Notes under the pieces: model-generated
Seen by the model: the letters and a program-made list of their open reading frames with translations, nothing else
Databases searched by the model: none
Told to the model about the DNA's origin: nothing
IMG/VR virus record: IMGVR_UViG_3300046692_000061
Span: 1 to 40,824 of that record
Direction: 5' to 3' (one strand)
DNA from: a virus
Length of the DNA stretch: 40,824 nt
Position numbers and translations under genes: made by a program
Shown: piece after piece, positions 392 to 36,610 of the stretch
How the letters are laid out: each line of letters starts with the position of its first letter
Position numbering within the stretch: the stretch's first letter is position 1

Positions 392-706
392 ATGGCAAAG
401 CCCCAGAAACAGCAACGTGAAACCAAGCCCATGACTGGCATGGAACGCTTGGTAATAAGGGTCTCGAACATGGTCAACCATCCCGTCGCGCAGCTGGATA
501 GACGGGTGACGATTCATCGCCTGGACACGGACGGTCAGCGGGAGTGGGACGAGATCCTTGGGGTTCTGTCAGACACAGATGGCATCGACCTGACGATAAA
601 CGACGAGGAAGAATCGATAACCTTGGAGTGGGAAGCGGCCAGTGATGATGATCGGCCGGTCCAGGTTGATGACGTGGAGCTGGCGGAGGCGCCGACACCT
701 TTCTAG
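392..706 (+). CDS. SOS-controlled DUF1654-family protein
   Basis: A 104-residue acidic protein without membrane segment. The core, roughly residues 18-85, has the pattern I recognise from DUF1654 proteins of Pseudomonas and their prophages (GMERL near the start, then HRLDTDG, then a TDGIDLTI stretch). The family has no established function known to me. The start is fixed by AAGGAG about 6 bases upstream. It is convergent with the repressor gene at 756-1574, with a shared terminator between, and has its own LexA box. A role in prophage induction or the SOS response is inference from position only. Confidence 0.75.
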   Translation: MAKPQKQQRETKPMTGMERLVIRVSNMVNHPVAQLDRRVTIHRLDTDGQREWDEILGVLSDTDGIDLTINDEEESITLEWEAASDDDRPVQVDDVELAEAPTPF

Positions 707-32533: not shown

Positions 32534-32689
32534 ACTGGCGGAGAGCCATGAGCGTAGCGCGTCACAGAATAGAGCAGTGCCTGCTGTGACGCCCTGCATC
32601 TCGGATTGACGGCTGGTCATCTGATTTGAATGGGTCAGGGTATGAAGGTATGCTGCCGCCCTGAACCTGGTTACCAGCAAGAGCACCGC
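32534..32689 (+). other. Intergenic region upstream of the glycosyltransferase gene
   Basis: No gene seen. GCGTCACAG (32559-32567) and CTGTGACGC (32584-32592) form a perfect 9-bp inverted repeat with a 16-base loop; without a T-run it is a weak terminator or a regulator site. A sigma70-like promoter follows at 32626-32654. Confidence 0.5.
32626..32654 (+). promoter_or_regulatory. Candidate promoter of the glycosyltransferase gene
   Basis: TTGAAT (32626-32631) and TATGCT (32649-32654) are spaced 17 bp, 4 of 6 consensus matches each. The start would be about 30 bases before ATG 32690. With the terminator at 33572 this isolates the gene as a moron-type unit that could be expressed in the lysogen. 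Confidence 0.45.
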
Positions 32690-33547
32690 ATGACGGATAT
32701 ACAGCCAAAAAACAAACAGAAAATTGCCTGCTGCGCGATCATGAAAAATGAGTCCCCGTATATCCATGAATGGGTTGCTCATTACACCTCTCTTGGCTTC
32801 GATCAAATCTTTGTCTACGAAAACGACAGCTCTGATCGAACTGCAACGTTGCTTAAGACCCTCGATAAGTCAGGTTCACTAACCTTCACTCCCTGGCCGT
32901 CATTAGACAAGAAGTCCCCTCAGATAAGCGCTTATGAGGATGCGATTTCTCGTACCGATGCAGACTGGATGCTCTTCTGCGATGCAGACGAATTCTTGGT
33001 TCTCAATAAGCATGAGGACGTTCACCAGTTCATGGAGGGTTTCGGTGATGACGTGTCATCTGTCTGCCTTAACTGGAGAATCTTCGGATCGTCCGGCCAT
33101 GAGAAAAGGACCAAAGGCCTGGTGCTTGAAAGGTTCCAGCAGTGCTCGGAGCCTGATTTCCCCATCAATCGGCATGTAAAATCCTTCGTTCGGCCATCGG
33201 CCGTGAAAGAAATGCATATTCACGCCCCTGTTACCACCGGAAAGCAGGTTTATTCAGATGGGCAAGAATTCGTTTTCAGTACTGGTGAGCAGGGAATTTC
33301 GCCGGAGATCCGAACCGACGTCGCAGTGATAAACCACTACTTCACCAGAAGCAAAGAAGAGTGGGCAGTCAAGAAGCTACGAGGCAACGCAAACCGGTCG
33401 ATCGACGCACGCGACAAGTTTATTCGCTATCACGAAGGCCTGTTTGATAAGCACGACAGAAACGAGATCCACAATGACTTCGCGTTGAAGTATGTCCCAG
33501 CCATTAACGATCTGGTCCAGAAGTACCTTGCAGACCTCGGTCGATAG
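32690..33547 (+). CDS. Glycosyltransferase (GT2-like) moron
   Basis: A 285-residue cytosolic protein. N-terminal CCAIMKNESPYIHEWVAHY, then DQIFVYENDSSDRT and the DxD-type metal site DAD (residues 98-100) in WMLFCDADEFLV mark a GT-A fold glycosyltransferase of the GT2/GT92-like type. The frame extends to 32630 but the ATG at 32690 is preferred. Its own promoter and terminator and a more AT-rich look suggest a recent cargo gene. Possible role: altering O-antigen or capsule in lysogens, blocking superinfection (inference). Confidence 0.8.
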   Translation: MTDIQPKNKQKIACCAIMKNESPYIHEWVAHYTSLGFDQIFVYENDSSDRTATLLKTLDKSGSLTFTPWPSLDKKSPQISAYEDAISRTDADWMLFCDADEFLVLNKHEDVHQFMEGFGDDVSSVCLNWRIFGSSGHEKRTKGLVLERFQQCSEPDFPINRHVKSFVRPSAVKEMHIHAPVTTGKQVYSDGQEFVFSTGEQGISPEIRTDVAVINHYFTRSKEEWAVKKLRGNANRSIDARDKFIRYHEGLFDKHDRNEIHNDFALKYVPAINDLVQKYLADLGR

Positions 33548-34585: not shown

Positions 34586-34615
34586 TTGACCCAGCTCCTG
34601 CGTGTCTCGTTAACT
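34586..34615 (+). promoter_or_regulatory. Promoter of the UmuD'-like gene
   Basis: TTGACC (34586-34591, 5 of 6 to consensus) and TTAACT (34610-34615, 3 of 6) are spaced 18 bp. The -10 runs into the LexA box at 34614-34629, so LexA would cover the promoter. Confidence 0.5.
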
Positions 34616-34629
34616 GTACGCATATACAG
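34614..34629. promoter_or_regulatory. LexA (SOS) box of the UmuD'-like gene
   Basis: CTGTACGCATATACAG matches CTGT-N8-ACAG. It is 14 bases upstream of ATG 34644. This is the second SOS box of the element; the other is at 359-374. Confidence 0.82.
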
Positions 34630-34643
34630 TTGCGAGCTTCGCC

Positions 34644-34982
34644 ATGCTTTTCGATCAACAGAAAATCTCTCTCGACCAGCTACTCAACATCCGCGCTCCT
34701 GGCACCTACCTAATAAAGGTGGAAGGCGACAGCATGCAGGGTGCCGGAATCTTTTCCGGCGACATCCTGATCGTGGATAAGGGCATGGAGCCTTCCGCCG
34801 GCAGAGTCGTGATTGCCCTGGTCAACCGCGATCCGCTGGTGAAATACCTGTCGTTCGTCGACGGAATGCCGGTGCTCACATCAGCGAATTCCAAATACCC
34901 GGCGCGCTACATCCTTGAGAACGATGAATTCGAGGTATGGGGCGTGGTCACCTACAGTATCCGGGACCACGACAGGAATTGA
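34644..34982 (+). CDS. UmuD'-like S24 protein lacking the cleavage segment
   Basis: A 112-residue protein. It aligns with E. coli UmuD from about residue 37 on (QKISLDQLL to QRIDLNQLL), keeps Ser30 (GDSM) and Lys67 (LVKYL) with the same 37-residue spacing as UmuD Ser60/Lys97, and ends GVVTYSI like UmuD GVVIHVV. The first 36 residues of UmuD, with the Cys24-Gly25 cleavage site, are absent, so it resembles processed UmuD', as phage P1 HumD does. It may partner host UmuC or modulate SOS mutagenesis. No umuC is in the window. Confidence 0.8.
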   Translation: MLFDQQKISLDQLLNIRAPGTYLIKVEGDSMQGAGIFSGDILIVDKGMEPSAGRVVIALVNRDPLVKYLSFVDGMPVLTSANSKYPARYILENDEFEVWGVVTYSIRDHDRN

Positions 34983-34984
34983 GC

Positions 34985-35248
34985 ATGGACGTCAAAGAGC
35001 GAGAATTGAAGATCTGGCACGACCTGCTCGAGCACGAGGCGCGGCGAGAGTGTGCGATCGATCATTGGGCAGGTGAACTGGCCGGGCACGCGATGGCACT
35101 GGGCAGGCTCGGAATCATCGACGAGGAAGAGCTTCGGGAAATGCTGGAGCTTGCCGACGCTGCCTACAGCCATGTCGCCGAGGAGTTGCTGACCCGGGAG
35201 TGGCTGCAGGTGAAGGCGGCGAAGAAATTGGAAAAAGGGGAAGGGTGA
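34985..35248 (+). CDS. Small helical protein in the SOS unit
   Basis: An 87-residue, acidic, all-helical protein (WHDLLEHEARRECAIDHWAG; DEEELREMLELADAAYSHVA), not recognised. It starts 3 bases after the UmuD'-like stop and is probably cotranscribed, so SOS-induced. It is the last gene before the attachment region. Confidence 0.6.
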   Translation: MDVKERELKIWHDLLEHEARRECAIDHWAGELAGHAMALGRLGIIDEEELREMLELADAAYSHVAEELLTREWLQVKAAKKLEKGEG

Positions 35249-35436: not shown

Positions 35437-35491
35437 GATTTAGGTTCCAGCGCCGCAAGGTGTGAGAGTTCGAGTCTCTCCGTCCGCACCA
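35437..35491 (+). other. Attachment core (attP), 3' part of tRNA-Leu(UAG)
   Basis: These 55 bases equal the anticodon loop to CCA end of a tRNA-Leu: TTTAGGT loop with TAG anticodon, variable arm, GAGAGTTCGAGTCTCTC T-arm, and CCGCACCA end. The 5' half of a tRNA is missing; upstream sequence does not fit a D-arm. The integrase ends 9 bases away. Integration would restore an intact host tRNA. Position between late genes and int makes it attP, or the shared att of tandem prophages. Confidence 0.82.
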
Positions 35492-35500
35492 TTATATATA

Positions 35501-36610
35501 TCAAGGGCTTACGAGCTTTAGCGCTACCTTCCCTTGAGACACTGGAACATCAGCGTGAACTGAGCGTGAACTCGGCTTTTCACGCAACCCGTCCAGAACC
35601 CCGACTGCATCCCTCACCCGAGCCGGCGCCAGATGCGCATATCGCTCGGTCATGGTGATCGTCGAGTGCCCCAGCAAATCCCGAACTTCTGCCAGCGCAA
35701 CCCCCGCGCTGATCAAATGTGCCGCGCACGTATGACGCAGATCGTGAATCACGAAATCGTTGATCCCCGCCCGTTCGCACGCCGCCTCGAATCCCTTCCT
35801 TATGCATGCCACTCGTTCGCCACTGCTTCGGGCGAATACCCAGGGTGACGCCGGGCAAGCTTCAGCCCGATACGCCATCCGTCCCTTCAGCGCATCCAGC
35901 GCGCCCTCATTCAGTGGAATGCTTCGCCGCTTCCCTGCCTTCGTGTGTTTCCCTTCCAGATGAATCAGCTTGTTGACCAGATCCACCCGGCGCCATTCCA
36001 GCCCCAGCATTTCCTCCTTCCTGCACCCGGTGTTGACCGCCAGGTGGATGAAGTCATCGAGCAGGGCGCCGTTGCGTTGTTTTCGCGCGGTTCGGCAGAG
36101 TGATTCCACTTCGGCGCGCGTCAGCCAGCGCACCCGGCCTTCGGGCTCTTTCAATGTCCGACCCTTCACCGCGTTGGGCAGGCCCCATTCCAGTTCGGTG
36201 TTGCACCAGTTGATCGCCGCCGACAGCGCCGCGAGCTCCCGATTGACCGTCGCAGGTGAAGCCCCCGCATCGATCCGACTGGCGGTGTATGCCCGAATCT
36301 CCTTTGCGCCTATGTCATTCATCACCGAACCGGTAAAATAGGCGCGCAACGCTTTCACTCTGTGGGTTGTGGTTTCGTAACTGCGCTGGTGCTGGCTGGC
36401 GTGGCGCAAATATGGAAGCATGACCTCGTTGAACGACCGGGGCGGATTCACGCCCCATTCCTTTTCCTTCCAGGCATCCGCCCGGGCCTGCTGCTCTATT
36501 GCCTTTGCCGCCGCGAAGTCGGCAGTGCCAGAAGAGCGTCTAACTCGTTTTCCATCTGCTTGTTTGACGAAGATCCACCAATACGGGGAGTCTTCTCTTT
36601 TGTAGGGCAT
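35501..36610 (-). CDS. int: Tyrosine integrase
   Basis: A 369-residue site-specific recombinase. Arm-binding and SAM-like core domain at 55-155; catalytic domain with Arg197 (TGCRKEE), Lys224 (HTKAGK), His289/Arg292 (HDLRHT), His315 (LLGHSTITM) and nucleophile Tyr324 (TERYAH). Catalyses phage integration and excision at the tRNA-Leu att site next to it. The start lies inside the upstream excisionase-like gene (115-base overlap). Confidence 0.94.
   Translation of the reverse strand: MPYKREDSPYWWIFVKQADGKRVRRSSGTADFAAAKAIEQQARADAWKEKEWGVNPPRSFNEVMLPYLRHASQHQRSYETTTHRVKALRAYFTGSVMNDIGAKEIRAYTASRIDAGASPATVNRELAALSAAINWCNTELEWGLPNAVKGRTLKEPEGRVRWLTRAEVESLCRTARKQRNGALLDDFIHLAVNTGCRKEEMLGLEWRRVDLVNKLIHLEGKHTKAGKRRSIPLNEGALDALKGRMAYRAEACPASPWVFARSSGERVACIRKGFEAACERAGINDFVIHDLRHTCAAHLISAGVALAEVRDLLGHSTITMTERYAHLAPARVRDAVGVLDGLREKPSSRSVHADVPVSQGKVALKLVSP

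Follow-up and report, generated by a model that had tools for sequence, protein, structure and literature searches.

What could an SOS-controlled, UmuD'-like protein do in a virus that carries no UmuC of its own? The locus at positions 34586-35248 of a 40,824-base virus record (the whole stretch analysed, hereafter the window) raises this question. The source is a temperate Pseudomonas phage, whose integrase is akin to that of D3-type phages. According to the original prediction, the locus encodes a pre-processed UmuD' analogue that is active in the manner of P1 HumD and may redirect host Pol V-type mutagenesis. The features of the locus and of the adjoining prophage edge are as follows.

34586-34591, plus strand: -35-like hexamer TTGACC, 17 nt before GTTAAC, kept in relatives
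34614-34629, no strand assigned: LexA box CTGTACGCATATACAG, exact palindrome match, conserved in relatives
34644-34982, plus strand: armless UmuD'-like S24 protein, 112 aa, Ser30/Lys67 (ATG 34644, TGA 34982)
34985-35248, plus strand: sml, small helical gene, 87 aa, in last position in the cassette and in some umuDC operons
35437-35491, plus strand: core of 55 bases identical to the tRNA-Leu(tag) 3' end, likely attP
35501-36610, minus strand: tyrosine integrase (context), Phage_integrase match of 122 bits

SOS promoter and boundaries of the umuD' gene

The predicted LexA control was borne out at the level of sequence by a perfect box at 34614-34629. The expected number of exact CTGT-N8-ACAG sites was 0.53 for the whole window, against two found, and ~0.0008 per 60 nt. 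The box is kept at the same place in relatives that are 97-99% identical, and in most relatives it is conserved or heads the operon. The arrangement TTGACC-N17-GTTAACTGTAC also recurs in relatives whose DNA further upstream is unrelated; a generic promoter scan did not report the TTGACC hexamer at 34586.

The in-frame sequence upstream of the ATG consists of just ten codons (LYAYTVASFA) after the preceding stop; they include no start codon and span the LexA box. A longer N-terminus, which would have undermined the original prediction, was therefore ruled out. The dN/dS ratio between near-identical phage copies of the short umuD' gene was 0.02-0.06, indicating that the gene is under strong purifying selection; the possibility of a non-coding remnant was rejected on the same values.

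The second perfect LexA box of the window, CTGTATATGCATACAG, is located at 359-374, and the same 16-mer precedes many host umuD genes. A DUF1654 gene (window 392-706) lies 17 nt downstream of it and, judging from this arrangement, is likely to be a second SOS-controlled phage gene.

Fold and ancestry of the 112-residue protein

The 112-residue protein matched Peptidase_S24, the 'UmuD-like' family phrog_811 and solved UmuD', the last of which was its best sequence match. The partial match to UmuD was found as predicted, starting at residue 35. The Ser/Lys dyad has the expected spacing of 37 from Ser30 to Lys67, identical to that from Ser60 to Lys97 of UmuD. The dyad is invariant among the Pseudomonas short forms, and in the pocket of the phage protein the acidic residue Asp63 is also retained beside it. 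The predicted structure of the phage protein has a pLDDT of 91, and in the fold comparison the crystal structure of UmuD' (1umu) was the best match (TM 0.86/0.90), with the LexA C-domains at ~0.74. The fold thus groups with UmuD' ahead of LexA or CI, as the original prediction needed, and this ranking ruled out a LexA/CI-type S24 identity.

The NCBIfam UmuD model gave 95.8 bits (cut-off 110), and the HumD model NF051876 gave 46.3 bits (cut-off 120), compared with 221.5 bits for P1 HumD. In the tree, the short proteins fall inside the Pseudomonas UmuD radiation and HumD groups with enterobacterial UmuD; HumD and a protein of Pantoea phage G19 are paired (99/94), apart from the Pseudomonas group (95/89). 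In AU tests, one clade of HumD with the Pseudomonas short forms was not firmly rejected (p 0.056-0.16), and a single origin of all short forms was neither shown nor rejected (p 0.19-0.29). Taken together, a UmuD' fold and an ancestry within Pseudomonas UmuD are supported for the phage protein.

The short Pseudomonas proteins lack the N-terminal arm

The phage protein begins MLFDQQK-ISLDQ, and its Met1 aligns with Ala31 of UmuD. The self-cleavage region (Cys24-Gly25) is missing, as had been claimed, and so is the UmuD' arm (G25FPSPAAD). The N-termini of the other short copies are unrelated and vary in length. P1 HumD starts MGFPSPAAD and the Pantoea G19 protein MGFPSPATD, that is, exactly at the cleavage product, so both retain the arm. 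The claim of HumD-like activity was not supported in that form: HumD keeps the arm that the phage protein lacks, and the tree places the phage protein away from HumD.

Searches of viral contigs and genomes turned up relatives of two kinds. Chromosomal and many plasmid-borne UmuD proteins contain both the cleavage site and the arm (VPAGFPSPAADH), mostly with umuC following the gene; short proteins, which are encoded by phages, by prophages and by certain plasmids, contain neither. Counting distinct proteins with enough downstream sequence, we found that none of the 29 UmuC-less short proteins from Pseudomonas has the GFPSPA arm motif, and that 63 of the 66 with an adjacent umuC do. The association of the arm with an adjacent umuC (Fisher p ~1e-15) applies to this set only, as its rows are related to one another and were collected with the window protein. 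The 29 remained from 31 proteins without arm and without umuC, after two that are not Pseudomonas short forms were dropped: one without the UmuD N-terminal core, fetched beside a weak Y-family match, and one from a Pseudoalteromonas phage. Seven proteins, P1 HumD and Pantoea G19 among them, have the arm and no adjacent umuC. The motif is absent beside umuC in three cases, two of which are apparently frameshifted or mutated, while the third, L108 (G104:C7), is apparently genuine. At L108 an armless UmuD gene adjoins an intact umuC, and pattern matching found no LexA box; this locus would test whether loss of the arm always inactivates Pol V.

In a published model of Pol V, one UmuD' arm is located in UmuC near the active site and the other in solvent, and the UmuC C-terminus docks on S36, T71, K73 and E69 of UmuD' (PMC11791011). 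We read these residues, with an offset of 24, as Ser60, Thr95, Lys97 and Glu93 of full-length UmuD. A passage of the same paper, citing Peat 1996, describes E. coli UmuD' without the arm as dimeric and fully defective in mutagenesis (PMC11791011). The UmuC tails of the hosts end LWTVKC, resembling LLRVK of E. coli. On that basis, the short proteins would still offer a pocket to the UmuC tail and would be missing the element through which UmuC is activated. Such docking would also account for the retention of the dyad where there is no cleavage site, with cleavage in trans as an alternative.

The cassette with sml and orfX

The predicted small helical gene, sml, does follow umuD', although the gap is 2 bases and not 3. 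In operons of the P. putida group, the sml profile also matches a small gene that overlaps the end of umuC (profile comparison p 5e-5; phrog_6137 common to both). The annotated phage collection yielded no match to sml, a fold search with the small helical protein returned nothing at E <= 0.001, and a relation of sml to the upstream 74-aa family (phrog_9523) beside other short copies was not detectable. Elsewhere, sml is also the final gene behind a full umuDC, or is found near LexA boxes without umuD (L165, L052:7570-7791, L214-L224).

In P. putida 700447 and several viral contigs, a SRAP gene is divergent from orfX-umuD'-sml, and a LexA box separates SRAP from orfX; two conjugative plasmids, pMG2 of P. 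syringae and PP1 of P. cerasi, have the same order. Other contigs have LexA-umuD'-sml, as in the window, or LexA-orfX-sml without umuD', and L165 has SRAP, a LexA box and a full umuD-umuC-sml. Given these varied forms, the window, which contains umuD'-sml only and no orfX, represents a pared-down version of a modular set of SOS genes.

The orfX gene was detected in 55 of 299 Pseudomonas genomes and, in the loci read, was nearly always directly behind a LexA box. Its product has 98 aa, belongs to phrog_5560 and ends SWWCRFE (e.g. L148:3691-3987); in nearly all of 30 Pseudomonas loci (L175-L204) it directly follows an exact LexA box. It apparently represents an undescribed SOS gene family. No link with host UmuC was seen (35/55 against 142/244, p 0.54). 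Since LexA-orfX-sml often occurs without umuD' and is not linked to host UmuC, these neighbours may have another job.

The umuD' end of the cassette adjoins the tRNA-Leu(tag) attachment core, and the edge of a prophage is a usual place for accessory genes. Another possible accessory gene, encoding a family 92/2 glycosyltransferase, is located upstream of the lysis genes (window 32630-33547).

UmuC in the related elements and in the hosts

The absence of UmuC, which the original prediction had noted, extends beyond the window: a search of this record and of 14 related viral records, which may be fragments, returned no Y-family polymerase. UmuC is present in seven of the eight sampled Pseudomonas genomes that hold short copies, against a background of 59% (p ~0.10, a trend only). 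The P. putida 700447 genome, which holds a 77% copy, carries its own umuDC; in G161 a short copy is present and UmuC was not detected. Two genomes (G199 and G037) hold UmuC copies without a detected adjacent UmuD, together with an armless short UmuD'.

Proposed role of the armless UmuD' and its alternatives

Our tentative proposal is that the SOS-induced armless UmuD' engages host UmuD/UmuC and tunes, or more likely restrains, Pol V. DNA damage would lower LexA, and the short protein would then be made at once, with no need for RecA-dependent cleavage. It could pair with host UmuD or UmuD', accommodate the C-terminal tail of UmuC in the pocket that it has kept, or both. With no arm to place near the active site of UmuC, the protein would leave Pol V restrained or re-tuned rather than active, and its most likely role during the handling of phage or prophage DNA would be that of a decoy or brake acting on SOS mutagenesis in the host. 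The single arm used in the models could still come from the host protomer if the dimer is mixed, and the arm rule itself derives from E. coli data and from AlphaFold models built for other proteins. We keep the proposal tentative because the co-occurrence with UmuC is only a trend and because the neighbouring genes act without umuD' elsewhere; G161, with no detected UmuC, and L108, where a short copy lies beside umuC, are points against a brake. We are more doubtful of a wider version, in which a modular LexA-controlled cassette on Pseudomonas prophages and conjugative plasmids supplies an armless UmuD' that inhibits host Pol V, alongside orfX and sml as two SOS proteins not described before.

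Four other explanations were weighed. The UmuD'-fold domain might damp the SOS response, by competing for the RecA filament with LexA, UmuD or CI, or by otherwise lowering SOS expression. The plasmid-borne Pseudomonas protein UmuDpR is reported to be anti-SOS (PMC6636244), and structures of UmuD and LexA on RecA filaments have been solved (8gmt, 8gms); however, UmuDpR, which is encoded on pUM505, is a full-length protein in which both cleavage site and arm are present, and damping would leave the retention of the dyad pocket unexplained; we regard this reading as unlikely. We think it quite unlikely that the protein is a HumD-like activator. Such a protein, by itself or paired with host UmuD' in a mixed dimer, would join host UmuC in a functional Pol V, with no need for RecA-dependent cleavage, and so raise mutagenesis and lesion bypass. 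The regulation and the absence of umuC are as for P1 HumD, which database annotation describes as functionally complementing UmuD'; relatives of the phage gene adjoin SRAP, a known Pol V neighbour (PMC3765255); and, as the Pol V model leaves one of the two arms exposed to solvent, a mixed dimer could work (PMC11791011). The arm of HumD and full-length UmuD is nevertheless missing here, and the passage citing Peat 1996 reports armless UmuD' to be defective.

The dyad could instead cut host UmuD, or phage CI, in trans and speed the conversion of UmuD to UmuD'. The invariance of the dyad in the Pseudomonas short forms fits such a protease, as does the cleavage of UmuD S60A in trans by UmuD 18, a truncation that cleaves itself poorly (PMC5342242). 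Yet the docking of the UmuC tail would also account for the dyad, and Pantoea G19 has lost the dyad; we consider cleavage in trans improbable. Most improbable of all, in our estimate, is a role independent of UmuC, in which the protein would serve an SOS-controlled function of the element with sml and orfX. Although orfX and sml travel behind LexA boxes without umuD', irrespective of host UmuC, orfX is absent from the window, the umuD' fold is strongly constrained, and sml also follows full umuDC.

If the armless protein does restrain Pol V, mobile elements would limit, not raise, host mutagenesis during DNA damage, and the cassette would be a possible mobile-element brake on SOS mutagenesis. 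Phage homologues of UmuD' are readily taken for HumD-like boosters of mutagenesis, and a conserved armless version would put the asymmetric-arm model of Pol V to a natural test. Two families of small LexA-controlled genes that recur around Pseudomonas SOS loci are also revealed by the analysis.

Comparison with known systems

UmuD and UmuD' of Pol V (E. coli; Pseudomonas UmuD/RulA) share the fold, the dyad spacing and LexA control with the phage protein, which differs in having no counterpart of residues 1-30 and no UmuC partner in the element. UmuDpR of pUM505, the reported anti-SOS effector (PMC6636244), is also a UmuD on a Pseudomonas mobile element, divergent from SRAP and with no adjacent umuC annotated, but unlike the window protein it is full length and has both cleavage site and arm. 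SOS operons of the SRAP-umuDC type have been described (PMC3765255); as there, SRAP and a umuD-type gene diverge on either side of a LexA box in relatives, but umuC is missing, orfX and sml are found instead, and the window retains umuD'-sml only. P1 HumD, which is LexA-controlled, and the Pantoea phage G19 protein are likewise phage-borne, short and of UmuD' fold, without umuC. Both retain the MGFPSPA arm, in contrast to the phage protein described here, and G19 (L137), which keeps the arm and has lost the dyad (Thr/Ala), is the reverse of the window protein. We did not find a description of an armless branch in a modular SOS context in the literature searched, most subscription papers being outside the search. 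An orphan phage UmuD' is already known in HumD; what is new here is a conserved armless branch in a modular SOS context.
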